Source of the DNA: a virus
IMG/VR virus record: IMGVR_UViG_3300019768_000001
Span: 1 to 55,279 of that record
Strand: one strand, 5' to 3'
DNA: 55,279 bases
Positions 124 to 48,740 of the stretch are shown here, piece by piece (positions within the stretch are counted from its first letter, which is position 1; every line of letters begins with the position of its first letter). Position numbers and translations under genes: made by a program. Below the pieces are notes generated by a model. The model saw only the letters and a list, made by a program, of their open reading frames with translations. It was not told the DNA's origin and made no database searches.

Positions 124-3100
124 GCTATCAACGAATTCATTCACAGACAGTCCAAACCCGTCAGCAAGTGCAGCCAGGTTCTCGGGTGTCTGGTCAATTC
201 CGCTAATCGTAGCCAAAAACTCCTCAATGCCATCAGCAGTTAAATTCAAGTTTTCAAGCGCTCGGTCTTGCTCAGAAACACCGCGCAGAGTGTCGAGCAG
301 ATCACGTAACCGGCTTATATCCCGGTCGTTAAGGCCAATATCTGCAACTGATTGAACTATATCAACAACATCTTTTACAGGCTCAACTGGCGGCGGCGGT
401 AGTTTTGCAATGGCGTCGTATGCGTTGAATGCACCTAGGAGCCCGTCAAACCTGTCTTTTAATGCAGCCTCGTCTGACTCTGTGATAAGGTCAAAGAATT
501 GCTGGAACGATAGCGCACCGCTTTCCAGTTTCCCTTTCCAGTAATCTAGCCCGCCCTGATCCGGCAATCGGCCTAGAACGTCTTGGTAAACCTGTGCAAT
601 CTGAATCCCTGTGTCGCTCAGGGGTTCGACCAGCGTTAAACCCGCAGTTGTCGCTGAATCATAGGCCGCCTCAAGCTCTTCGGCAGATACGCGCATGCCG
701 CCGATGAAATTAATAACACCGCGAAACTCTTCTTTAATACCGGACATTATCCCTTGCAGGTTTTGACCAGACTGAGCGCTATCTACAGTGACAGATGACA
801 CATCGATTGTTTCTTCAAGCTTTGACAGTGAAGACTCAATGATGGCGTTTGAATCTTCAATCGCATTTGCTGCAGCCTCTGACAGCCTGGCCTGATCGGT
901 GATCGCGCTGGAGTATTCAGATAAAGCGTCGGCAGCAGCAAGGTACCTTACCAATCCTTCGTCAGAAAAAGCGTCTGAATCTTTGAATCTCTCGATAGAG
1001 TCCCGCAGCGTTTCAAAACTAGTTTCCGTTGTAACCCCTATACTGCTGAATTTCTCAAGATCAATAACTGCCGATTCAATTGCGGACTCCACCTGCTCAG
1101 AAGCTGAAAAAAAGTTTTCCTCGTAATTTGACGTAAGCCTATTTAACTCCGCCCCGGCATTCTCCATGCCAACCCCAGTTAAATCATCAACTACTGAGAG
1201 CAGGGATTGAGTAAAATCAGCAACAGCCTCGACATCTGCCGTATTAAATCTTGACGTGAACTCTGACAGCTCATCGTCTAGCGCTGCCGCCTCTTTGAAT
1301 AGCGATCTTAGCTCACCTTTAATGCCTTTAATCGCGACGATATCAATACTGGCATTAAGAACCTCAAGCTCTGACTTTAACGATTCGTCTAGCTCGGCAA
1401 TCTCTTCTCTTCTGGAAAACAATGCATCAAACTGGTCAGTGTATAACTGTTTGAGCTCCTGTGTCTGCGCATCTATTTTGCTCGTGGATTTAGATGAAAG
1501 ATCGATAGAGTCTAATGCTGAAAGAACCTCTTTTGCATCATCCGACAGCCTGATAAACGTCTGTACAGACTGCTCGCCAATCCTGCCAAAATCCTCAAGA
1601 GCTCCGAAAGCCGCTTCCGACGCTTGGTTAGAAAAATCAGAGATAACGGTATTAAGGTCCCCGTTTTTTACTTTTATCTCGCCAGTAAACTCATCTATAC
1701 CCGCACCCAGGGATTTTGCTGTATCGGATAGGCTGCCTGATACGGAATCAAACGTATTTTGTATGACCCCTATCGTCGCATCATCTACAGCATTTCTGTA
1801 CGTGGTCGTCCGCTTATTCCATAGACTCGTCTTCTTGATCGTTTTTGTACTGAACGCTTGCGCGATGGTGTCGCTAACAATATTTACATCAAAGCCTTCT
1901 CCGACCTTCTGTTTTGAAGTGGTTAGCAATCCACCAATAGCACCACCTGCCTGCGCCCCCTGTGAGGCTCCTTTAGCGCCGCCAAAATAAGCGCCGATTG
2001 CCGTACCGATCACCGTACCTGCTTTCTGTAGATCGCTTTGATTGTCGCTGGCAAGAGATCCAATTGCTGCGCCAATAGCGGAACCGACTTCACCTCCTAT
2101 CTGCTCACCGATCATTGCACCCACAGATGTAAAATCTTGACGCCCAAGAGAGCTGCTTAGCGCCTCTGCAAACTCAAACCCGGTTTTCTCTCCAGCGACA
2201 CCGGCCTCGTCACCTAGCCCTCCAAGCTCTGCCGCCAATTCCCCAAGTCGTTTCTTGTTAGCGTCAAATACCTCCTGCGACATCAAGCCGAGGTCAAATA
2301 AACGTTTTGCCTCGTCGTATTCTCTGATAATAACGCGAACAGGTTTAGCTAAGTCCTTAAATCGTTCTGCTGCGGCTTTGTTTTTGTCGTTTAGCTTATT
2401 CTGGGCATTTAATAGCTTTAACGCCTCTGCTCCAGACTTCCTATACGACTCCTCCTTCTTTTTCTCTGCGCTCGATACACCAAGAGACGCCTTTCTTTCT
2501 TTCTCGTCAGCAATAGCCTTGGCTTCGATCTCTTTTCGAATGGCTTTTAATTTGGCCTTGAACTGTTCAGAGTAAGCCGGGCTATCTGCAAGATCATCAA
2601 GCGCCTGAATCTGCTCTTGTAATGATTTGTTTACAGATTCATTGGCATCTTTTATGTCGCCCGATGTCACTGTGAAATTTGCAACTTGATCACTAAAGGA
2701 GGCAAGCGATTCAGATGCAGCCCTGAACCCATCTGATACTGAGCCGGGAGTTATGTCAGCTAACGCACCAGTAATGATGCTCCAGCCCTCAGCGACATTC
2801 TCAAGCACGACAAGTAATGGTTTCAGTGCAAAGTTGACAAGCCCTGCCACAGCGTCGGCAGATTCTGCCATGGCACCAGTGGCTAGGGATGCAATCTGAG
2901 TCCATCCTATACCAACTAACCGCAGGCCCATTTCTAAGGTTTGCACTACATCAAGCAAGACCCCAATGGCATCAATGCCAAATTTAACAAATGACTCAAT
3001 ATCGCCTTTATCGAACGAGTTAATCATCTGTTCTATTTTTTCTTGAACAAGGATGACGGCCGGGGATAAGTTGGCAGCAAGCAACCTGGTTGCTCCGCCA

Positions 3101-3774
3101 ATAGCGCTGCCCATGCGCTCGAAACTTTCGGACGCTTCGATTAATGCGGTATTGTCGAAAGAGGATAGGGCCTGTCCGGTCTCCAGTGATTTATCTAAAA
3201 GCCTGTCTAGTTCTTCTGTGTTATCCGTTATCAACGGCAACATAAGGGATAGGTCGTTAGCCAAAGACTCAGCAAAGAATACTTGCTCGCCTCTACTTTC
3301 AACCTCCTTTAATGCCTCGCCAATTTTACGAAGCTGATCAGCTGGGTCTAGGTTTTGCAGGTCTTTTGCGCTTACCGAAAGCTGCTCGAATATATCCGCG
3401 CCTTCACCTCCACCTGTGGTTAAAAAATCACCAACTTTATCCGACACATCTTTTAGTGCTTGACCCATATCATCAGCAGAGATGCCAACTGTTTTAGCTG
3501 CCGCTTGGAATTGCTGCAGCTTGGTTGTACTGATGCCCAGAGATTTTGCAAGATCGTCGTTTTCTTTTACCTGCTGACCAACGACAGCAACTAGACCTGC
3601 AACAGCGGCGGCAGCGGTTGCGGCCACTTGTGCAACTTTACCGACACCTTTAGCAAGTGAAGCAAGCTGCGGCTCAGACTTTGCCCCAGCCTTTCCGAGC
3701 CCTTCTAGCCGTTTTATCCCTTGCTCAACCCCTGCCGAGTTAATCCGTATCCCAAGCTCTGCAATATCTACCAT
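1..3774 (-). CDS. Tape measure protein, N-terminal part (gene crosses the window ends)
   Basis: Starts at ATG 3774 (MVDIAELGIRINSAG) and reads without a stop to base 1, then continues from 55156 to the TAA at 54023, giving 1,635 residues. Tape measure proteins fill the tail tube and set its length. At the usual 0.15 nm per residue this predicts a tail near 245 nm. The sequence is Ala/Ser/Asp/Lys-rich with long heptad-like stretches and hydrophobic Gly/Ala segments in the middle, typical of the family. It lies directly after the frameshifted tail chaperones, the canonical position. A terminator (3846-3867) and its own TACAAT promoter (3812-3820) separate it from them, so it is probably transcribed independently. 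Confidence 0.93.
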   Translation of the reverse strand, partial: MVDIAELGIRINSAGVEQGIKRLEGLGKAGAKSEPQLASLAKGVGKVAQVAATAAAAVAGLVAVVGQQVKENDDLAKSLGISTTKLQQFQAAAKTVGISADDMGQALKDVSDKVGDFLTTGGGEGADIFEQLSVSAKDLQNLDPADQLRKIGEALKEVESRGEQVFFAESLANDLSLMLPLITDNTEELDRLLDKSLETGQALSSFDNTALIEASESFERMGSAIGGATRLLAANLSPAVILVQEKIEQMINSFDKGDIESFVKFGIDAIGVLLDVVQTLEMGLRLVGIGWTQIASLATGAMAESADAVAGLVNFALKPLLVVLENVAEGWSIITGALADITPGSVSDGFRAASESLASFSDQVANFTVTSGDIKDANESVNKSLQEQIQALDDLADSPAYSEQFKAKLKAIRKEIEAKAIADEKERKASLGVSSAEKKKEESYRKSGAEALKLLNAQNKLNDKNKAAAERFKDLAKPVRVIIREYDEAKRLFDLGLMSQEVFDANKKRLGELAAELGGLGDEAGVAGEKTGFEFAEALSSSLGRQDFTSVGAMIGEQIGGEVGSAIGAAIGSLASDNQSDLQKAGTVIGTAIGAYFGGAKGASQGAQAGGAIGGLLTTSKQKVGEGFDVNIVSDTIAQAFSTKTIKKTSLWNKRTTTYRNAVDDATIGVIQNTFDSVSGSLSDTAKSLGAGIDEFTGEIKVKNGDLNTVISDFSNQASEAAFGALEDFGRIGEQSVQTFIRLSDDAKEVLSALDSIDLSSKSTSKIDAQTQELKQLYTDQFDALFSRREEIAELDESLKSELEVLNASIDIVAIKGIKGELRSLFKEAAALDDELSEFTSRFNTADVEAVADFTQSLLSVVDDLTGVGMENAGAELNRLTSNYEENFFSASEQVESAIESAVIDLEKFSSIGVTTETSFETLRDSIERFKDSDAFSDEGLVRYLAAADALSEYSSAITDQARLSEAAANAIEDSNAIIESSLSKLEETIDVSSVTVDSAQSGQNLQGIMSGIKEEFRGVINFIGGMRVSAEELEAAYDSATTAGLTLVEPLSDTGIQIAQVYQDVLGRLPDQGGLDYWKGKLESGALSFQQFFDLITESDEAALKDRFDGLLGAFNAYDAIAKLPPPPVEPVKDVVDIVQSVADIGLNDRDISRLRDLLDTLRGVSEQDRALENLNLTADGIEEFLATISGIDQTPENLAALADGFGLSVNEFVDSVETIAESVKETAAELFDFEAKVDRAKSDAEKAVAAEADRLT

Positions 3775-17749: not shown

Positions 17750-17778
17750 CTCTCTCACCCTCACAATTAAACTATTAG

Positions 17779-17825
17779 ATAACACTGCAATCACAGGGCC
17801 GTTCCGCCCTGTATTTCTTTGTTAT
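17779..17825 (-). repeat. attC-like 47-bp element, copy A
   Basis: Ends ATAACA and TGTTAT, inner stem CAGGGC/GCCCTG with loop CGTTCC, and unpaired stretches between. It lies five bases after the lipoprotein stop (17829). On the minus strand it is close to copies at 35881-35927 and 48631-48677, all exactly 47 bp long. The layout resembles integron attC sites. Confidence 0.6.
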
Positions 17826-17828
17826 GTG

Positions 17829-18065
17829 TCAATACTTACAGGTTGAAATAGTGCCGTCTGCTTCAATTTTTGTTGTTATCCCACCTCGATACCTCGCCAG
17901 AAACATTATGTATTCAACTCCATCAATACATACCACCTCGTATTTACCGTCACCGCCTTGTATCGCGCGCCCAGTTTTTCCTATGTCGCTTCTTTCGCAG
18001 CCCGTCACACATAACAAAGCAATTAAAACGGACAAAGCAAACGCTCTTCGTTTCTTGTTTTTCAT
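17829..18065 (-). CDS. Small lipoprotein
   Basis: 78 residues from ATG 18065. A Lys/Arg N-terminus, a hydrophobic core (AFALSVLIALLCVTGC) and a lipobox VTGC predict signal peptidase II cleavage and a lipid-anchored mature protein of about 57 residues. The mature part contains GVEYIMFLARYRGG, a pattern I associate with small phage and mobile-element lipoproteins. Its stop is followed directly by the attC-like element 17779-17825. Confidence 0.75.
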   Translation of the reverse strand: MKNKKRRAFALSVLIALLCVTGCERSDIGKTGRAIQGGDGKYEVVCIDGVEYIMFLARYRGGITTKIEADGTISTCKY

Positions 18066-33315: not shown

Positions 33316-33378
33316 TTCAGACCACCTTTATTTTCTTGTTTATATATATCCAGAGTAGGTTTCTAGGTTTAGATAGGC

Positions 33379-33427
33379 ATAACAACTCTAAGGAAACCAA
33401 TATTAATCAGTTAACCTTAGCTGTTAT
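33379..33427. repeat. attC-like palindromic element, candidate
   Basis: ATAACA (33379-33384) and TGTTAT (33422-33427) at the ends, CTAAGG/CCTTAG inner stem with unpaired bases on one side. Similar frame to the elements at 17779, 35881 and 48631, but no small gene ends at it. Confidence 0.4.
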
Positions 33428-33439
33428 ACCTGATATATC

Positions 33440-33718
33440 CGTCGTAGTGTGTCTTAGGATATCAAGGCAGTCTATTCGATCATGGTCTAATAAACTTAGG
33501 TCAGTATGGTCAATGAACCACCAGAGTCATGCGCTAGACCTACACCTGTTAAGGCAACTCTTAGGCGCTCCCGCTTGCTCTCTGTGCCATGTAGCGGGAT
33601 TGTCACCAGTACGCACCGGTTTTAACCGACATACTGGTCTAGCTGATTACGTGGGATTGCTCGGAGTAATCCCTTTAACCGTTTCTGGCTTCGGGACGTG
33701 GGGCGGGATTTCAGGCAT
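33440..33718. other. Gene-free stretch with several strong hairpins
   Basis: At least three hairpins: CCCGCT/AGCGGG (33570-33598), CCAGTA/TACTGG enclosing an ACCGGTT/AACCG stem (33606-33637), and GGGATT/AATCCC (33652-33672). No convincing gene on either strand. Likely structured RNA or DNA; orientation unclear. Confidence 0.5.
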
Positions 33719-33822
33719 AAAAAAAGGTCTTTTAGGTGTGCCCCTGTGAGAGGAAGCGGAATTAACCGCAAAGACACACTTAAAAAACCTTTCTCGCTAT
33801 CTGGCTCTCACCCCAATCAGCA
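33719..33822 (-). ncRNA. Candidate small RNA ending in an 18-bp terminator hairpin
   Basis: Promoter TATAAT at 33834-33829 on the minus strand. The RNA would run about 100 nt to a hairpin whose arms (33773-33790 and 33725-33742) pair over 18 bp using several G-U pairs, followed by seven T (33725-33719). GTGAGAG and CTCTCAC (33805-33811 / 33746-33752) can pair as an alternative. The only following ORF is 23 codons with no ribosome site, so it is more likely an RNA than a leader. Confidence 0.55.
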
Positions 33823-33982
33823 CTAACAATTATACTTTATGGTTAGATTTAATCAACAAATCTTTGAAGCACACCCTGCGGGGTTAATTGCCACCGGCGG
33901 TGCTTGGCCCCGATAGCAAAAACAGGATGCGCCCCAAAGCCCCTAAGAATCTTCATTATGAACCGCAATAGTTACTTTGCAA

Positions 33983-35676: not shown

Positions 35677-35876
35677 TTTTCCACCATTTCACATTTTGCC
35701 GTGCTTGTTACTGACTCAACACCTAGCAGCCTGGACACATCAACAGAAGGCCAATATAGGAAGTTTTCCGCCACCCTTTGGCATTTATCAAGATCATAGT
35801 AAACGGTCTTGCTGATCGATGGAGAGTTGATATAGCCGGTTAAATTAAGCGTTAGAGTCAGGGCTAGTATTATCAT
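35673..35876 (-). CDS. Small secreted or membrane-anchored protein, 67 residues
   Basis: ATG 35876. MIILALTLTLNLTGYINSPS is a short signal-like sequence, then two Cys (DKCQRVAENF and TAKCEMVEK) that could form a disulfide. Its ribosome site GAGGTG is inside the attC-like element that precedes it. Confidence 0.6.
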   Translation of the reverse strand: MIILALTLTLNLTGYINSPSISKTVYYDLDKCQRVAENFLYWPSVDVSRLLGVESVTSTAKCEMVEK

Positions 35877-35880
35877 TGCA

Positions 35881-35927
35881 ATAACACCTCAATAACATAG
35901 ACCTTCGGCTATGTATTTCTCTGTTAT
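35881..35927 (-). repeat. attC-like 47-bp element, copy B
   Basis: ATAACA...TGTTAT ends, inner stem CATAG/CTATG with loop ACCTTCGG, exactly 47 bp like copies at 17779 and 48631. It starts directly after the stop (35934-35932) of the 41-residue ORF and carries the ribosome site of the next gene. Confidence 0.6.
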
Positions 35928-35931
35928 ATTG

Positions 35932-36057
35932 TTAAAACTCTAACATGGTATATTTTCTGCACTCCCAGAATCCTGGCGGTGTAGTCCAGTCGGCCCAGCG
36001 TCTGCGGACAAAAACTTTAAATTTAACGCCTTTATGTGTTCTGTATACAAGCTCCAT
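35932..36057 (-). CDS. Cassette-like short ORF, 41 residues
   Basis: ATG 36057 with AGGG upstream; ends TTT TAA right before an attC-like element. MELVYRTHKGVKFKVFVRRR then WADWTTPPGFWECRKYTMLE; basic and aromatic. Flanked by attC-like elements on both sides (35881 and 36071), the layout of a gene cassette. Confidence 0.55.
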   Translation of the reverse strand: MELVYRTHKGVKFKVFVRRRWADWTTPPGFWECRKYTMLEF

Positions 36058-36070
36058 GACAACCCTAAAT

Positions 36071-36128
36071 ATAACAATGCAATCAAACAGATAACTCGTA
36101 ACCTCGTTACTCGTTATCGCCGGGTTAT
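36071..36128 (-). repeat. attC-like element between cassette-like genes
   Basis: 58 bp. ATAACA/GTTAT ends, GATAAC...GTTATC and GTAAC/GTTAC inner pairs. The stop codon of the gene at 36125 lies inside it (TAA within ATAAC). Confidence 0.55.
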
Positions 36129-36313
36129 GTTACCTTTTTAATATTTAGTGTAATTTCCACCAGTTCAGTGTTTTCTCTATCATGCTTGTCTGCTACTTTT
36201 TTTAGGTATCGCCTAGCTGGTGTAGCGCTATCAAATATAAGCATGTTTTGGTTTTCTCCATCAACTCTAATCTGTTTCGTTTTACTATCAATCAGTACAA
36301 ATGAACTTTTCAT
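36125..36313 (-). CDS. Cassette-like small protein, 62 residues
   Basis: ATG 36313. MKSSFVLIDSKTKQIRVDGE, then RYLKKVADKHDRENTELVEI; alpha/beta, basic. Lies between the attC-like elements at 36071 and 36343, so it has the position of a gene cassette. Family not recognised. Confidence 0.6.
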   Translation of the reverse strand: MKSSFVLIDSKTKQIRVDGENQNMLIFDSATPARRYLKKVADKHDRENTELVEITLNIKKVT

Positions 36314-36342
36314 TTTTTTAAGCCTCTTGTGTTTTCGGTAAC

Positions 36343-36397
36343 ATAACAAGTAAAATCAAAGCTGACGCGCTACGCTTGAAGTTTATTTGGTGGTTAT
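36343..36397 (-). repeat. attC-like element, third in this array
   Basis: 55 bp. On the minus strand ATAAC, then AAATAAA, then an asymmetric loop, TTTGATTTTA and GTTAT; pairing leaves a single bulged C. It overlaps the stop codon of the gene at 36394. Confidence 0.58.
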
Positions 36398-36555
36398 GCG
36401 CCAAGCTCGGCAATACACCCAAGCAGCACAATTCTAAACAGCTCTGGTTTATCTCTATGCCAGTTGCCTAGTGTTTGTAGGCTTTGTCCTGTTAGCTCAG
36501 ATACTTGCGACAGGCTTTTAAGGCCAGCCGCTTTTGCTTGCTGTGATGGGGTCAT
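36394..36555 (-). CDS. Small HTH-like protein, 53 residues, paralogue of 18134
   Basis: ATG 36555 overlaps the upstream stop (ATGA). MTPSQQAKAAGLKSLSQVSE then LTGQSLQTLGNWHRDKPELF looks like a small HTH with a Trp recognition segment. The gene at 18134-18322 has the same opening. Possibly a regulator. Confidence 0.65.
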   Translation of the reverse strand: MTPSQQAKAAGLKSLSQVSELTGQSLQTLGNWHRDKPELFRIVLLGCIAELGA

Positions 36556-36728
36556 AGCAACCCCCGCTTCTCAGCATCTTTTAAAAATTCGTCTTGCTGC
36601 TCGACTGTCATGTGGCCAGCTATAGCAAGCTGCACTAATGCCATTAGGCGGTCGTCTTCCAGCTCACCTGCAAATTCTTTAAACATACCGTTTAGTTTGT
36701 TTGATCTTACTAGGCCGTCATTAATCAT
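36552..36728 (-). CDS. Small hypothetical protein, 58 residues
   Basis: ATG 36728 (ACGGAG upstream), preferred over ATG 36764. KLNGMFKEFAGELEDDRLMA and GHMTVEQQDEFLKDAEKRGL are helical and acidic. Coupled to the HTH-like gene. Confidence 0.58.
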   Translation of the reverse strand: MINDGLVRSNKLNGMFKEFAGELEDDRLMALVQLAIAGHMTVEQQDEFLKDAEKRGLL

Positions 36729-36779
36729 TTTATTTTGCTCCGTTGCGTTAGTTAGTAAGTACATTGTTACAAACTATTT

Positions 36780-37312
36780 GCTCCTTGCCTAGTCTTTTTG
36801 CAAATTACTTTAAATTAATTGTAGAAAGCGCATAACAAAGCAAGGCAATCGGATGCAAGCACCGTTGCTCGCAAAGATTATTTGCTCTATTTGATGCGCC
36901 GACTATTTACCAATCAGCACATCGAATAAAACGCCCTGCCGCAGGAATCCGGGCCAGACCATGAAAAGAGGAAAAATATCAAAACCCCTTGCCTGCTTGC
37001 ACATTGATTCGGCTCTGTGTGCTCCACTGGAGATTCCGCGCATCATGTAAATCCAATGGACGGCAGCTTCAAAGCTACACAAAGCTAATTATCGCGGACA
37101 TAATGCCAGATCCGCGCCCTGATATAGGGTATTAATGTGACTGTTAGCGCCACCCTCCCCGCTGTGACAATATTGTCGGAAAGGTGACGCTAAGGAATGC
37201 GCTCTGTCGTTCCCATAATTTTATACACAACCACAATGCAATTTATTGAACAAACACACTTTGGTTAATGTTTAAGTTATGGCAAAGCGCATTATTTAGC
37301 GCAACTAACAGT
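36780..37312. other. Gene-free stretch with hairpins
   Basis: No supported gene on either strand. It contains ATAACA near 36838 without a matching end, TTAGCG...CGCTAA flanking GGTG/CACC, and the 12-bp palindrome GACAATATTGTC. It probably belongs to the structured region that continues to 38720. Confidence 0.4.
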
Positions 37313-37622: not shown

Positions 37623-37736
37623 ACCGCGAAATAACGACACAACCAGGATGGCAATTGATCTTATATGCTAATTTTTCAGACGAGCATAATTAATGATTGA
37701 TCATTGCCGCCCTATAATGTTCGGGCTTTAAATGGG

Positions 37737-37809
37737 GCCACAAACGGGACTCGAACCTGCGACCTCTCGCTTAGGAGTCGAGCGTTCTATCCAACTGAAC
37801 TAATAGCGC
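37737..37809 (-). tRNA. Degenerate tRNA-Arg(CCT)-like sequence
   Basis: 73 nt with a D arm (GTTC/GAAC), anticodon loop CTCCTAA and T loop TTCGAGT, but the acceptor pairs in only about four of seven positions and the T stem has a mismatch. A decayed or unusual phage tRNA. Confidence 0.5.
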
Positions 37810-37815
37810 TTAAGA

Positions 37816-37888
37816 GCTGAAGGCCGGATTCGAACCGACGCAATACCAATGCGAACAAAGGCGGGTTTTCCAGTTTCCCCACTTCAGC
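37816..37888 (-). tRNA. tRNA-like sequence without an anticodon arm
   Basis: Acceptor GCTGAAG/CTTCAGC pairs perfectly (7 bp); D arm with CTGG; T arm GTCGG-TTCGAAT-CCGGC. Between them, CGCA-TTGGTAT-TGCG looks like a class-II variable arm, and a normal anticodon stem is missing. Could be a deletion derivative of a Leu/Ser tRNA or a tRNA mimic. Confidence 0.5.
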
Positions 37889-37889
37889 T

Positions 37890-38720
37890 TAAATTGACCA
37901 GACTCTTCTCAGAGTGTAGAGGAATGTTAGATAACCCCTAACCGGGTAGATTATCACCTCCTTACTTCGCCCCGTGATATTAGAATTAAAACGGTTACAG
38001 CTTTTCGGTTGGCTAAATACAGTAAAATTATGAGGCTGCACCTATCATCTTTTCAGACCTGATGGATAGCCAGGAGTCTTTCCATGTAAGATTTTTGGCG
38101 ACTCTTTAACGTGCTATTTCCTTCCCGTTGCCCTTCACTGTATTGGTGTAGGCACCTGCCAAATTGATCCAGTTAGGAGCGTCCATCAGCAGAAACCTAC
38201 CCAATACACACCGCTTAGCCGGTGAATCTATGCATTAAAAATCAAGCTGAAGACCAAATTCCCAACCGATGATCGCGTCTACCTAATGACGCCTACTCAG
38301 GCTGCAGCCTGCTTATAGCCCACCCCGTCGACTAGGAGGGTGCCAGCGCCATGTATACTCACAACACTGAAAACAGCTTGATTTTTAATGCACACTGGTT
38401 ACGCCAGTGAATCGGATTTACTCTTATCTGATTGTGCTTTATTGGCCCGCACTTACCGCCGTAGTGGTCTAACGTTATCCTAACCATATTCAACCTGTTC
38501 AACTGCACCAGGCTTATGAATAGGCATCCAACTTTTTGACATTGGATCAGGTCTTTCTCTATGGCGATTCATACAGGCAAGTTGCAATAAAAATAATAAC
38601 ATCTCACCTTCCTTGTTAAGTCTGCCAGATTAACCGCTGGCAGCTCCGGTTTTGTCGGGTAACTCCGGCAACGAATGGCAACCCGCTGCCTGCAAAACAA
38701 TAATAGCAAATTAATTTAAA
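37890..38720. ncRNA. Large structured gene-free region (candidate ornate RNA)
   Basis: No ORF of note. Contains nested complementarity: AATACAGT/ACTGTATT (about 38030/38145), GGCT...AGCC around TATC/GATA pairs (38070-38115), a 19-bp inverted repeat (38231-38249 / 38374-38392) and two homologous hairpins CACCG/CGGTG and CACTGG/CCAGTG, both followed by TGAATC. On the minus strand UAAGGAGGUGAU (37964-37953) is the exact complement of the 3' end of 16S rRNA. It adjoins tRNA-like sequences, a setting known for giant phage RNAs such as GOLLD. Confidence 0.45.
38231..38392. repeat. 19-bp perfect inverted repeat
   Basis: TGCATTAAAAATCAAGCTG (38231-38249) and its exact reverse complement at 38374-38392, 124 bp apart. 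The enclosed segment includes the 12-bp palindrome AGGCTGCAGCCT and CACCC...GGGTG. Confidence 0.85.
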
Positions 38721-40716: not shown

Positions 40717-41365
40717 CGCTCCACCGCTCCTGATTGAAATATGTTGTCGGGTGCATTTCAGCAAAACCCCTTTGCCCAGACTTCAACCGGGCCTGAACAT
40801 CAATGAATAGTTTTCCAGCAAAGTCCACAGGGTCTAACTTGTTATTCTTTGCGTAAGATTTGAACTTGGCCAAAGCTGGCTTCTTGCCGACTTTCTTCAT
40901 GCCAGCACACCAATAAGTTTCAAATGCTTCAGCGCACACATCATCGAATGATGATGAATTATCTTTATATAACTCTTTGTTATCTTCTTTGTTATATAAG
41001 GGCACTTTATGACCCTTGCCAGATGTCGTTTCCGACCCTTGCGCAAGGGCGCTTTCCGACCCTTGCTGAACAACGTTGTAATACTTAGCTTTATTTACGG
41101 TCATCATCCTTTTTTTCCCGTAATTCGTTACTTTGGTATCCCGAAAAATCCAACCTTTATCGCTAAGCGACTTTAGAACCGACTTAACACGACGCTCAGA
41201 TAAATCAAAAAACTCAGCAAGATACTGATCACTGGCAAAGCACGGGCCTGTTCTTGAAAGAGCATCGATCTCAGCAAGAAATAAAACCTCCTGCTTAGTG
41301 ATCTCCGTTGAGCTCCAAAGCTCTACTGGTATCCAGATTCCTGTAAACCCCCTTTCATCGCTCAT
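40466..41365 (-). CDS. Replication initiator O-like protein, with origin inside
   Basis: 299 residues. The N-terminal winged helix (FASDQYLAEFFDLSERRVKS) follows EITKQEVLFLAEIDAL, as in lambda O. The middle is Ser/Gln-rich and low-complexity and covers iterons in the DNA. The C-terminal domain ends with MHPTTYFNQERWSDE, after which a low-complexity tail runs through the P overlap. Binds the iterons and P to start replication. Confidence 0.84.
   Translation of the reverse strand: MSDERGFTGIWIPVELWSSTEITKQEVLFLAEIDALSRTGPCFASDQYLAEFFDLSERRVKSVLKSLSDKGWIFRDTKVTNYGKKRMMTVNKAKYYNVVQQGSESALAQGSETTSGKGHKVPLYNKEDNKELYKDNSSSFDDVCAEAFETYWCAGMKKVGKKPALAKFKSYAKNNKLDPVDFAGKLFIDVQARLKSGQRGFAEMHPTTYFNQERWSDEISSGNRQSGNSQHQGDKHAERQAKLDEWERQMLSGSSQQCQDVLGPHDGDIRGQVEQGSRGYAADRPALSLDDSHWQAGEK
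40940..41067 (-). other. Candidate replication origin inside the O gene
   Basis: Three direct repeats GACCCTTGC at 41012-41020, 41035-41043 and 41059-41067 (23-24 bp apart), two of them within the longer TTTCCGACCCTTGC. Next to them lies an A+T-rich tract (40943-41000) with repeated TCTTTGTTAT. This is the lambda ori plan of iterons plus melting region inside O. CCCTTGCGCAAGGG between repeats 2 and 3 is also a palindrome. Confidence 0.7.
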
Positions 41366-46889: not shown

Positions 46890-46994
46890 ATGAACAAAAC
46901 ACCAAAGCAGCGCCGTCACTCGCTATTAATGATGGATAACCACCGGAAGAGACTGGAGGCTGAGCGGGATGGGAAACAGCAAAAAACGCTGTAA
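46890..46994 (+). CDS. Small basic protein, 34 residues
   Basis: ATG 46890 after GGGTGATTT, overlapping the NinG gene by 26 bp. MNKTPKQRRHSLLMMDNHRK is highly basic. Kept because the ribosome site is good; function unknown. Confidence 0.45.
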   Translation: MNKTPKQRRHSLLMMDNHRKRLEAERDGKQQKTL

Positions 46995-47595
46995 GCAGTG
47001 CAAGAAATACGTTCCGGCTGAATCTGGAATTAAGGTGCCAGCCGGTTTCTTTTGCTCCCATGATCATGCTATTGAGTTTGCCAAAGCAAAGCAGGCTCAA
47101 TCGTCGCTTAAACAGCGCAAGGAGCGCGAACGCATAAAGTCGATGACTGTTAAGGATTTGGACAGAGAAAGCCTTCCTTGGCAGCACAAGCAGACCCAGA
47201 AGGCTTTTAACAGAATGAGGGTCTTGCAAGAGCTGTATTATTATCAATCGAACGGTCTAGAGCCCGTTTGTATTAGCTGCCAGAAACCGCTAGGCGGTGA
47301 TCAGTGGTGCTGCGGTCATTATAAAACCGTAGGCGCTCACCCAGAGCTGAGGTATGACCCTCTAAACACTCACTTGCAGCATAACCGTAATTGCAATATG
47401 GGATTATCGGGTGACATAAAAGGCTATACGTTCGGGCTCGTTGATCGCCACGGCAAGGACAAAGCTGCAGAGATATACGATTATCTGGCGGTAGATAATG
47501 GGCCAAAAAAATACACTTGTGATGAGCTGGAAAAAAACCGAGCAGAGTACCGAAAAGAAATTAGGCAACTAGAGAAAATTGTAACTATCGTCTAA
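46969..47595 (+). CDS. ninG: NinG / Rap-type recombination nuclease
   Basis: 208 residues. CKQCKKYVPAESG at the N-terminus, then ESLPWQHKQTQKAFNRMRVL and CISCQKPLGGDQWCCGHYKT, with HPELRYDPLNTHLQHNRNCN, match NinG/Rap Holliday-junction endonucleases. ATG 46969 with GGAGGCTGAGCGGG upstream. Confidence 0.88.
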   Translation: MGNSKKRCKQCKKYVPAESGIKVPAGFFCSHDHAIEFAKAKQAQSSLKQRKERERIKSMTVKDLDRESLPWQHKQTQKAFNRMRVLQELYYYQSNGLEPVCISCQKPLGGDQWCCGHYKTVGAHPELRYDPLNTHLQHNRNCNMGLSGDIKGYTFGLVDRHGKDKAAEIYDYLAVDNGPKKYTCDELEKNRAEYRKEIRQLEKIVTIV

Positions 47596-47657: not shown

Positions 47658-47870
47658 ATGAGCAAGATAGCAAGCGTTTACGATAAGAATTCAAAGTCAG
47701 TGATTTTAGATATGCGCCATCCGAACAAAGATGTGCCTAGACCTGAAATTGTGATCGACACAGAAACAGAGAAGTACGCCGTTCCGGGCGGGAAGACATT
47801 TGAGCTGCTTCGAGATGCGCGTGTTGTAGCAACTGAGATGTTTAGTAAGGCGGGTTTTGTTTGCCAGTAA
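47658..47870 (+). CDS. Hypothetical protein, 70 residues
   Basis: ATG 47658 with AAGGGGATAAC upstream. MSKIASVYDKNSKSVILDMR; compact and basic. Its stop codon (TAA 47868-47870) lies inside an attC-like element, so it may be the first cassette of the array. Confidence 0.6.
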   Translation: MSKIASVYDKNSKSVILDMRHPNKDVPRPEIVIDTETEKYAVPGGKTFELLRDARVVATEMFSKAGFVCQ

Positions 47871-47922
47871 CCATATAAATAAACGGTGCAGCGCAGCAAG
47901 TCCGATTTAATTTGCTTGTTAT
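47868..47922 (+). repeat. attC-like element, array 2 site 1
   Basis: TAAC...GTTAT ends, inner AAAT-AAA-CGG paired with CCG-ATTT-AATTT with two bulged T, loop GCGCAG. It begins at the stop of the gene 47658-47870. Confidence 0.58.
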
Positions 47923-47946
47923 GCTGCGAATAGATAGGGGGGGAAT

Positions 47947-48120
47947 ATGGGCGTTAGAATGAAAAAGACAGATCGAGAATGGCACGAGTACCCATTAGGG
48001 ACTAAAGCTCACGCCGTTATGGGTGGTTATTGGGAAAGAGTTAAGGGTGGCTGGAAATGGTGTACAGGTTCTACCTTTCCTACTCCCGGTGCTGACTGGC
48101 GAGTAATAGAATTACCATAG
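47947..48120 (+). CDS. Cassette-like small protein, 57 residues
   Basis: ATG 47947, GGGGGAAT upstream. MGVRMKKTDREWHEYPLGTK then WKWCTGSTFPTPGADWRVIE; many Trp. Lies between attC-like elements 47868-47922 and 48125-48180. Family not recognised. Confidence 0.58.
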   Translation: MGVRMKKTDREWHEYPLGTKAHAVMGGYWERVKGGWKWCTGSTFPTPGADWRVIELP

Positions 48121-48124
48121 CAAC

Positions 48125-48180
48125 ATAACCCCTTAAACAAACGCAGAGCGTAGCGATGTAGCTTTGCTTTAAATTGTTAT
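48125..48180 (+). repeat. attC-like element, array 2 site 2
   Basis: ATAAC/GTTAT ends. TTAAACAAA pairs with TTTGCTTTAA, leaving one bulged base. The loop is GC-rich. It starts a few bases after the stop of the preceding gene (48120). Confidence 0.58.
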
Positions 48181-48194
48181 ATTACGGAGACATT

Positions 48195-48629
48195 ATGGAT
48201 TACTTAAAACTATTGCAAGAAAGCTACAGAGAAACAGCAGAGAATAGGGATGACCCAACTTTAGAAAAACTAGAGTTCTTGGCTGAGGGTATTTTCGGAT
48301 TCACGACATACGAGAATGTGGTTTCTTCTACGATGGCGCAAAAGGCACTAGAAGTATGCAAGGCGATAAGTGACAAAAAGACATTTGATTACATTGCCAG
48401 TGAAGAGGGAAATCTTTGGTATCTGGTAATGGTTAATATGCCGTTTTTTGAAAACAGGCTTAATTGGGGTACTTCTATTCGTGGTGCTTGGTGGGATCTG
48501 TGGGGCAATAAAGAATTCACCATTGAGAGTTGCGAACTGTTTGGCGGTGAACAGATACTAGAGCTTAAATTGAATGACAGTGAATGGGTTAAGTTTATAG
48601 AAGCTATGATTAAGTTCGCGGAAGAGTAA
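48195..48629 (+). CDS. Cassette-like protein, 144 residues
   Basis: ATG 48195 with ACGGAGACATT upstream. The N-terminal part is acidic and helical (MDYLKLLQESYRETAENRDD); the C-terminal part has WGTSIRGAWWDLWGNKEFTI, a Trp-rich alpha/beta region. Flanked by attC-like elements at 48125 and 48631, typical integron-cassette gene size. Function unknown. Confidence 0.62.
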   Translation: MDYLKLLQESYRETAENRDDPTLEKLEFLAEGIFGFTTYENVVSSTMAQKALEVCKAISDKKTFDYIASEEGNLWYLVMVNMPFFENRLNWGTSIRGAWWDLWGNKEFTIESCELFGGEQILELKLNDSEWVKFIEAMIKFAEE

Positions 48630-48630
48630 T

Positions 48631-48677
48631 ATAACAAAGAAATACAGGGCGGAACGTCCCTGTTATTGATGTGTTAT
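48631..48677 (+). repeat. attC-like 47-bp element, array 2 site 3 (copy C)
   Basis: ATAACA...TGTTAT ends, inner CAGGG/CCCTG stem with loop CGGAACGT. Its reverse complement matches 17779-17825 almost base for base and 35881-35927 in frame and length. It starts right after the gene's stop (48629). Confidence 0.62.
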
Positions 48678-48740
48678 GCCAAAGTCTAATACCGCACCGA
48701 CTAAGTAAGGCGCACAATAAGAAAAAACGGAGGGTCGAAC

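Follow-up and report, generated by a model that had tools for sequence, protein, structure and literature searches.

Putative integrase-less attC-type cassette array in a 55-kb phage genome

An array of attC-like sites without an integrase

Positions 35879-36883 of the virus record IMGVR_UViG_3300019768_000001 probably constitute a short attC-type cassette array that lacks an integrase (CALIN) and would be recombined in trans by the integron integrase (IntI) of a host; two further such loci are proposed elsewhere in the phage. The window, i.e., the whole stretch of DNA analyzed, is this entire record of 55,279 bp, which looks complete and has 123 identical bases at its two ends; its large terminase is nearest to that of Escherichia phage HK639 (64% amino acid identity). 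We could show the sites and their layout, the R-box edges of one shared cassette, and breaks of synteny at R boxes at two more loci, and we infer that recombination would be performed by a host IntI in trans. We regard the array as genuine and as belonging to a known type of cassette array; its several loci, inverted polarity, and shared cassette are unusual, and its recombination activity is putative.

An earlier note, made from the letters of this DNA, had described three elements after the stops of minus-strand genes (35881-35927, 36071-36128, and 36343-36397). All three are present at these positions, each running from ATAAC to GTTAT with an internal stem, and two of the three stops fall inside the ATAAC box as described (genes 36125 and 36394); the stop of the gene at 35932-36057 lies a few bases ahead of the box, not inside it. 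The GAGGTG ahead of the ATG at 35876 was also seen, and the 35881 element contains the ribosome site of this next gene. The element itself (35879-35929, assigned to neither strand) reads ATATAACAGAGAAATACATAG..CTATGTTATTGAGGTGTTATTG on the minus strand and belongs to a family of the phage's own, here called the C family. It has a layout descriptor of 14.0 on the plus strand and a fold z of about -3, and gave no match up to an E-value of 10 to R1, the covariance model described below. Between it and the next element is an open frame on the minus strand, a small cassette gene of 41 amino acids (35932-36057) with no Pfam or PHROG match.

The other sites of the array are attC-like on the plus strand. 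The site at 36069-36130, opposite to the genes, is the window's top match to R1 (23.7 bits, E = 0.003) and has the layout ATATAAC-AAT-GCAAT[C]AAA..GTT-ATCGC-CGG-GTTATGT. The stop codon of the following cassette gene (36125-36313, minus strand, 62 amino acids, weak PHROG 470 match) forms its R box. The site at 36341-36399 (descriptor 14.5; layout ACATAAC-AAG-TAAAA[T]CAA[A]GC..GC TTG..GTTATGC) scored 17.6 bits (E = 0.1) with the filters off and was not reported by R1 with its default filters. Its R box holds the stop codon of a minus-strand cassette gene of 53 amino acids (36394-36555), which is similar to helix-turn-helix (HTH) regulators (PHROG 409 transcriptional regulator, E = 2.5e-6) and overlaps the second gene of the same cassette, an open frame of 70 amino acids (36552-36764, minus strand). 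A fourth site, which the earlier note had missed, forms the left end of the array at 36830-36883 (19.3 bits, E = 0.04); its layout is GCATAAC-AAA-GCAAG[G]CAA[T]CGG..CCG-TTG-CTCGC-AAA-GATTATT, with a degenerate second R box. The elements at 36071-36128 and 36343-36397 are unlike the C family in shape and more classical. On the basis of the R1 matches, the positive and negative controls, and the excess of descriptor sites over shuffles, the four sites form one array, which extends about 500 bp beyond the extent given earlier.

A CALIN is recognized by at least two attC sites within a few kb and no intI nearby, and this was found for four sites in 35879-36883 and three in 47865-48679. No integron integrase (TIGR02249) and no tyrosine recombinase (PF00589) was detected in the window, nor was PF00589 detected in G001 (IMGVR_UViG_3300019766_000001, 55,858 bp), the close relative used for the synteny comparison; with no intI match, the window does not hold a complete integron (intI plus attI). 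An Rfam search of the window gave tRNA-like matches only. By Rfam, two tRNA-like genes lie on the minus strand at 37736-37888 (38 and 35.7 bits), which ARAGORN did not report. The window also contains a perfect 19-bp inverted repeat (38231-38249 and 38374-38392, 124 nt apart), and the stretch with this repeat is 96% conserved in G001 (10889-10667).

Model scans, controls, and folding

R1 is a home-made covariance model that was built from the two ends of 20 published phage integron or CALIN attCs, aligned without gaps; the training sites came from Vibrio phage MK672802, Shewanella phage M16-3 (MZ568829), and Tetrasphaera phage TJE1. The window was not part of the training, but the layout was fixed after the window elements had been seen. 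A scan with an attC model, the check suggested in the earlier note, recovered the sites at 36069-36130 and 36341-36399 with 23.7 and 17.6 bits, respectively. In the 55-kb window, R1 gave five matches of 17.6-23.7 bits (23.7, 23.0, 22.3, 19.3, and 17.6), all at flagged intergenic sites, with E-values that are rough owing to a short calibration; the next matches were a short palindrome at 40967 (16.2 bits) and the element at 48629 (15.4 bits). As a positive control, R1 found four published-region sites of Pseudoalteromonas phage H101/PH101, which were outside the training set, at 28.8-43 bits. In the negative control, which covered about 1 Mb of DNA from other phages, scores above 17 bits occurred only in TJE1, H101, L008, the record of L046 (a virus contig described below), and one match in Polaribacter phage P12002L (17.7 bits). 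The published phage attCs lie at 28.8-43 bits, and the scores of the window sites are below those of validated attCs (34-43 bits).

A layout descriptor gave five sites of ≤ 70 nt scoring ≥ 14, whereas 100 dinucleotide shuffles gave 0.2 on average and never more than 2. Four of the five are intergenic elements described here, and the fifth (2982-3036) is probably due to chance; the occurrence of the elements is unlikely to be chance. All the main sites carry the R''/R' boxes ATAAC and GTTAT, with one side degenerate at 36883, and the descriptor and the R1 alignments both place an L''/L' stem with one or more extrahelical bases at the fixed spacing. The predicted DNA fold agreed with the attC layout at 48123, 48629, 17777, 35879, and 36341, and disagreed at 36069, 36830, and 47868 (site A, see below). 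Site 36069 folds preferentially into its inner palindrome rather than into the attC shape, and the folding of site A, 36341, and 36830 was no better than that of shuffles.

Array 1 and the third locus

The C family has three copies in the window (17788, 35890, and 48629). One side is conserved as ATAACA(R)AGAAATACA and the opposite side as TGTKATTG, and the stem varies yet still pairs. A 40-nt pattern made from the 35881 element and 48629 matched the window three times and gave no match in 100 shuffles. The 35881 element fails R1, but the family member at the third locus (17777-17827, neither strand preferred in the annotation) scores 22.3 bits on the minus strand and 11.7 on the plus strand; it is flanked by the 17423 gene and a lipoprotein gene (17829-18065). 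When IMG/VR was searched with exact and degenerate family patterns, the matches were limited to G001, a fragment identical to the window, and one coding sequence.

Array 1 begins with the weak attC-like site A (47865-47924, minus strand; 11.1 bits, E = 3.9), the layout of which (AAG-CAAAT[T]AAA[T]CGG) was judged by eye. It is followed by a plus-strand cassette gene of 57 amino acids (47947-48120), which has 15 relatives in other virus contigs, most of them with no attC nearby. In L064, a possible attC-like site (3171-3243; 16.4 bits, E = 0.3) lies on the opposite strand directly after a homologue of this gene (69% amino acid identity). Site B (48123-48182, minus strand; 23.0 bits, E = 0.005), which is again opposite to the genes, precedes a plus-strand cassette gene of 144 amino acids (48195-48629; PHROG 18399, E = 1e-38), and the array ends with element C (48629-48679; 15.4 bits on the plus strand and 10 on the minus strand). 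No attC lies near the homologues of 48195-48629 in L002, in a 137-kb contig, and in Vibrio phages, so that phage genes appear to have become cassettes, or cassettes phage genes. The cassette genes resemble ordinary small phage genes, i.e., an HTH regulator and a PHROG 18399 member, the others having no assigned function.

A further hairpin with ATAAC and GTTAT ends (33377-33429) was excluded, as no gene precedes it and its 14.1 bits come from the boxes only. It lies within a conserved noncoding stretch (33358-33856, 82.8% identical to G001), and its interior is not attC-like.

Polarity of the sites

The region had been read in the earlier note as a second attC-like array on the minus strand. 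R1, trained on outside sites, and the shared 36125-36313 block support an array, but not simply a minus-strand one, because 36069, 36341, and 36830, all of which score well, are attC-like on the plus strand and the neighboring genes are on the minus strand. On the plus strand, the layout runs through an R'' of 7 nt, a 3-nt spacer starting with AA, 5 bp, an extrahelical base, 3 bp, and the inner stem, and then back. Array 1 is likewise inverted (48123 on the minus strand, genes on the plus strand), and the same inversion is seen at G001 135-198, at L008 11179-11245, and in the L046 sites; the L008 site (33.9 bits) is downstream of the SSB gene, the same locus as in the window. CALIN genes typically, although not strictly, lie in the attC sense, and the genes at 36069, 36341, 36830, 48123, G001 135-198, and L008 11179 do not. 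The polarity of the C family is ambiguous: the extrahelical base points to inversion and the AACAAAG spacer to the gene sense, which R1 also favors (22.3 versus 11.7 bits at 17777).

Since the attC-like strand of most sites is not the strand of the genes, a boundary is placed at each stop codon, and the cassette unit is probably an element plus its downstream gene, not a gene plus a trailing element. The idea that inverted polarity applies to all phage CALINs was dropped, as TJE1 is in the gene sense and the H101 cassettes seem to hold unannotated plus-strand frames. In H101 (74500-79000), the annotated genes lie on the minus strand, opposite to the plus-strand attCs, and two of the cassettes have a repeated leader sequence ahead of the apparent unannotated plus-strand frames.

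Cassette boundaries in related viruses

A comparison of the boundaries with relatives had been named in the earlier note as the test that could overturn its reading, and the outcome favored it: in L046 (IMGVR_UViG_3300032257_000108, a 19.9-kb virus contig otherwise unrelated to the window), the 36125-36313 block ends at R boxes. L046 holds a homologue of gene 36125-36313 with 84% amino acid and 85% nucleotide identity, and this one homologue is the evidence for the edges of the cassette. The 85% nucleotide identity spans CTTG|TTATGTTACC to GGTAACATAA|C, and in the 30-nt flanks outside the R boxes only 7/30 and 11/30 positions are identical. Around the shared cassette, the attC interiors of the window and L046 are not alike, which means that the gene and an intact site were not inherited together. 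An antisense frame (36168-36341, plus strand) lies within this cassette; the ribosome site belongs to the minus frame, and the substitutions relative to L046 by codon position (9/4/17 versus 3/7/13) do not strongly separate the two frames.

L046 itself has two copies of the 36125-type gene, which are identical over 108 nt up to ATAA|C and then match at 8/30 positions. These identical copies share no common trailing site, as they should if the unit were a gene plus trailing site; judged from the alignments, the edge is the AA|C of the site after the stop, which corresponds to the predicted cut site (G|TT) of an opposite-strand attC. Copy 1 is cut by the contig end and could reflect an assembly effect or strain mixture, either of which would still give two alternatives that diverge at one point. 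The duplicated cassette gene is part of a cassette array at the contig end of L046 (positions 1-1400), in which four or more sites are attC-like.

The comparison with G001 covered all three loci. The accessory block between the SSB gene and the 48741 gene is replaced, and BLAST homology resumes at 48679, after the outer R box of element C. Past element C (48670-48690), the bases CCAAAGTCTAATACCGCACC correspond to the final codons of a RusA-like gene of G001, and this gene seems to be replaced in the window by the array and a 208-amino-acid gene (46969-47595), which we presume may encode a NinG-type nuclease. At the 17777 locus, synteny breaks at 17784 and homology is back at the TGTTATC box; G001 retains only a GTTATC box at this third locus. 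The 1-kb block 35880-36920 is missing in G001, which has another gene there; its right edge is the ATG at 35876, four bases from the element. The 49-nt element 35880-35928 is identical in G001 (49/49) and lies there between other genes. Edges at G|TT or AA|C are consistent with recombination by an integron integrase, and the alignments indicate that at least one gene was shuffled between viruses with ends exactly at R boxes.

Proposed mechanism and alternative explanations

In the mechanism we propose, each small gene would be bounded by an attC-like site of 50-62 nt whose single strand could adopt the attC fold. In the gene sense, a cassette would run AA|C, site, ribosome-binding site, gene, and TAA|C, with the R box supplying the stop codon, and the conserved G|TT (AA|C) point would be where cassettes enter, leave, or are swapped. 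The recombinase would be the integron integrase of an infected integron-bearing host, acting on folded single-stranded phage DNA during infection, and the cassette genes would be expressed through phage transcription across the array. Phage attCs are recognized by IntI1 (PMC9892861). The protein of cassette 36125-36313 was absent from the phages, plasmids, and 369 bacterial genomes sampled, and no bacterial source of a cassette was found in these genomes (0/369) or in plasmids, and the searches pointed to no host. In a bacterial collection with one genome per species, the C-family pattern gave four matches that look like chance, of which three lie in homologous Flavobacterium genes and the fourth in a metagenome-assembled genome (MAG); no bacterial source of this hairpin family was found in that collection. 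A wider reading, which we offer tentatively, is that an aquatic phage lineage possesses an attC-type exchange system with several loci and inverted polarity, in which the site leads the gene, the R box gives the previous stop, and cassettes pass from phage to phage via a host integrase.

A decayed or recombinase-independent origin of the array is possible. That the elements are remnants, i.e., attCs that decayed after an old capture and are no longer recombinogenic, seems rather unlikely to us but deserves serious weight: the scores below validated attCs, the degenerate GATTAT box at 36883, and the lone GTTATC box of the third G001 locus would fit such decay, and the identical 108-nt duplicates of L046 and the identical 49-nt element point instead to recent events, albeit in other genomes or at another site. 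The likelihoods that we assign to an array of attC-type cassettes and to such remnants overlap, because an array that had decayed would by origin remain an attC array. We consider it improbable that the elements are RNA signals between operon genes (terminators, processing hairpins, or translational elements) whose attC likeness is convergent, even though they lie between stop and start, one of them holds the next gene's ribosome site, and the C family forms a stable hairpin with a compensated stem that folds well on both strands. An intrinsic terminator (GC stem and U run in the gene sense) was not found at the elements: no U run follows them in the gene sense and terminator-like counts were not above those of shuffles, for which reasons a terminator array was rejected. 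An RNA signal would also leave unexplained why the same gene occurs with different elements, why homology stops at the R box, and why the attC layout with its AACAA spacer and extrahelical base was picked up by a model trained on outside sites.

The shared boxes and hairpins might, alternatively, be mere patches for homologous or illegitimate recombination between phages, without a site-specific recombinase. Phage genomes are mosaic, this phage has no recombinase gene, and the 49-nt C element is identical in the window and G001 with different genes on both sides; Qi et al. (2023; PMC9892861) also consider both kinds of recombination as ways in which phage CALINs could arise. We nevertheless judge this quite improbable, as the cassette edges fall at one point (AA|C, G|TT) and are not spread across the element, the flanking element interiors differ and would thus offer little homology for recombination, and the layout has the structure specific to attCs. 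A transposable element was rejected because no transposase adjoins the elements, their interiors differ, and no target duplication was seen. We return to a cassette array as the preferred reading. It adds comparative evidence for phage cassette exchange with edges at attC boxes and shows that one phage can carry such arrays at several loci. An active system would mean that phages not only carry integron cassettes but also use them, and that part of the gene turnover at phage accessory loci could be traced to site-specific cassette exchange.

Comparison with known systems

Mosaic phages are known to have start-associated or boundary sequences, in which a short conserved sequence and a hairpin between genes mark mosaic boundaries; to our knowledge, these have not been described with the attC R/L box layout or with single-point G|TT edges.

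Compared with the sedentary chromosomal integrons of the Vibrio type (attC/VCR), the window sites share the R'' of 7 nt, the 3-nt spacer starting with AA, the 5-bp stem, the extrahelical base, and the 3-bp stem, and the L046 sites (GCATT[C]AAA[C]GGG) resemble the Vibrio GCGTT[T]AAG[A]GGG. The window differs in having no intI, no known attI, and few cassettes, in the inversion of its genes relative to attC, and in the length of its sites (50-62 nt versus about 125 nt). This inversion is unexpected because integron cassettes normally present their genes in the attC sense.

The closest counterparts are the CALINs of virulent phages, i.e., Tetrasphaera phage TJE1, Pseudoalteromonas phage H101/PH101, and Polaribacter phage P12002L (Qi et al., 2023; PMC9892861), which were reported in 2023 from annotated genomes and for which recombination was demonstrated for cloned sites only (PMC9892861). 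Like these, the window combines clustered attCs, small genes of unknown function, and the lack of an integrase in a tailed phage, and its sites have the same layout of R box (ATAAC/GTTAT), spacer, and extrahelical base; R1 recovers the TJE1 and H101 sites. Unlike these, it has three loci that are separate and spread over both strands, its sites are short and weak, it has a phage-only hairpin family, and its attC polarity is opposite to that of its genes. TJE1 is in the gene sense, and H101 has attCs on the plus strand and annotated genes on the minus strand. The window also differs in providing direct evidence of cassette sharing between viruses; both the inversion of polarity and the cassette boundaries shared from phage to phage seem to be novel.
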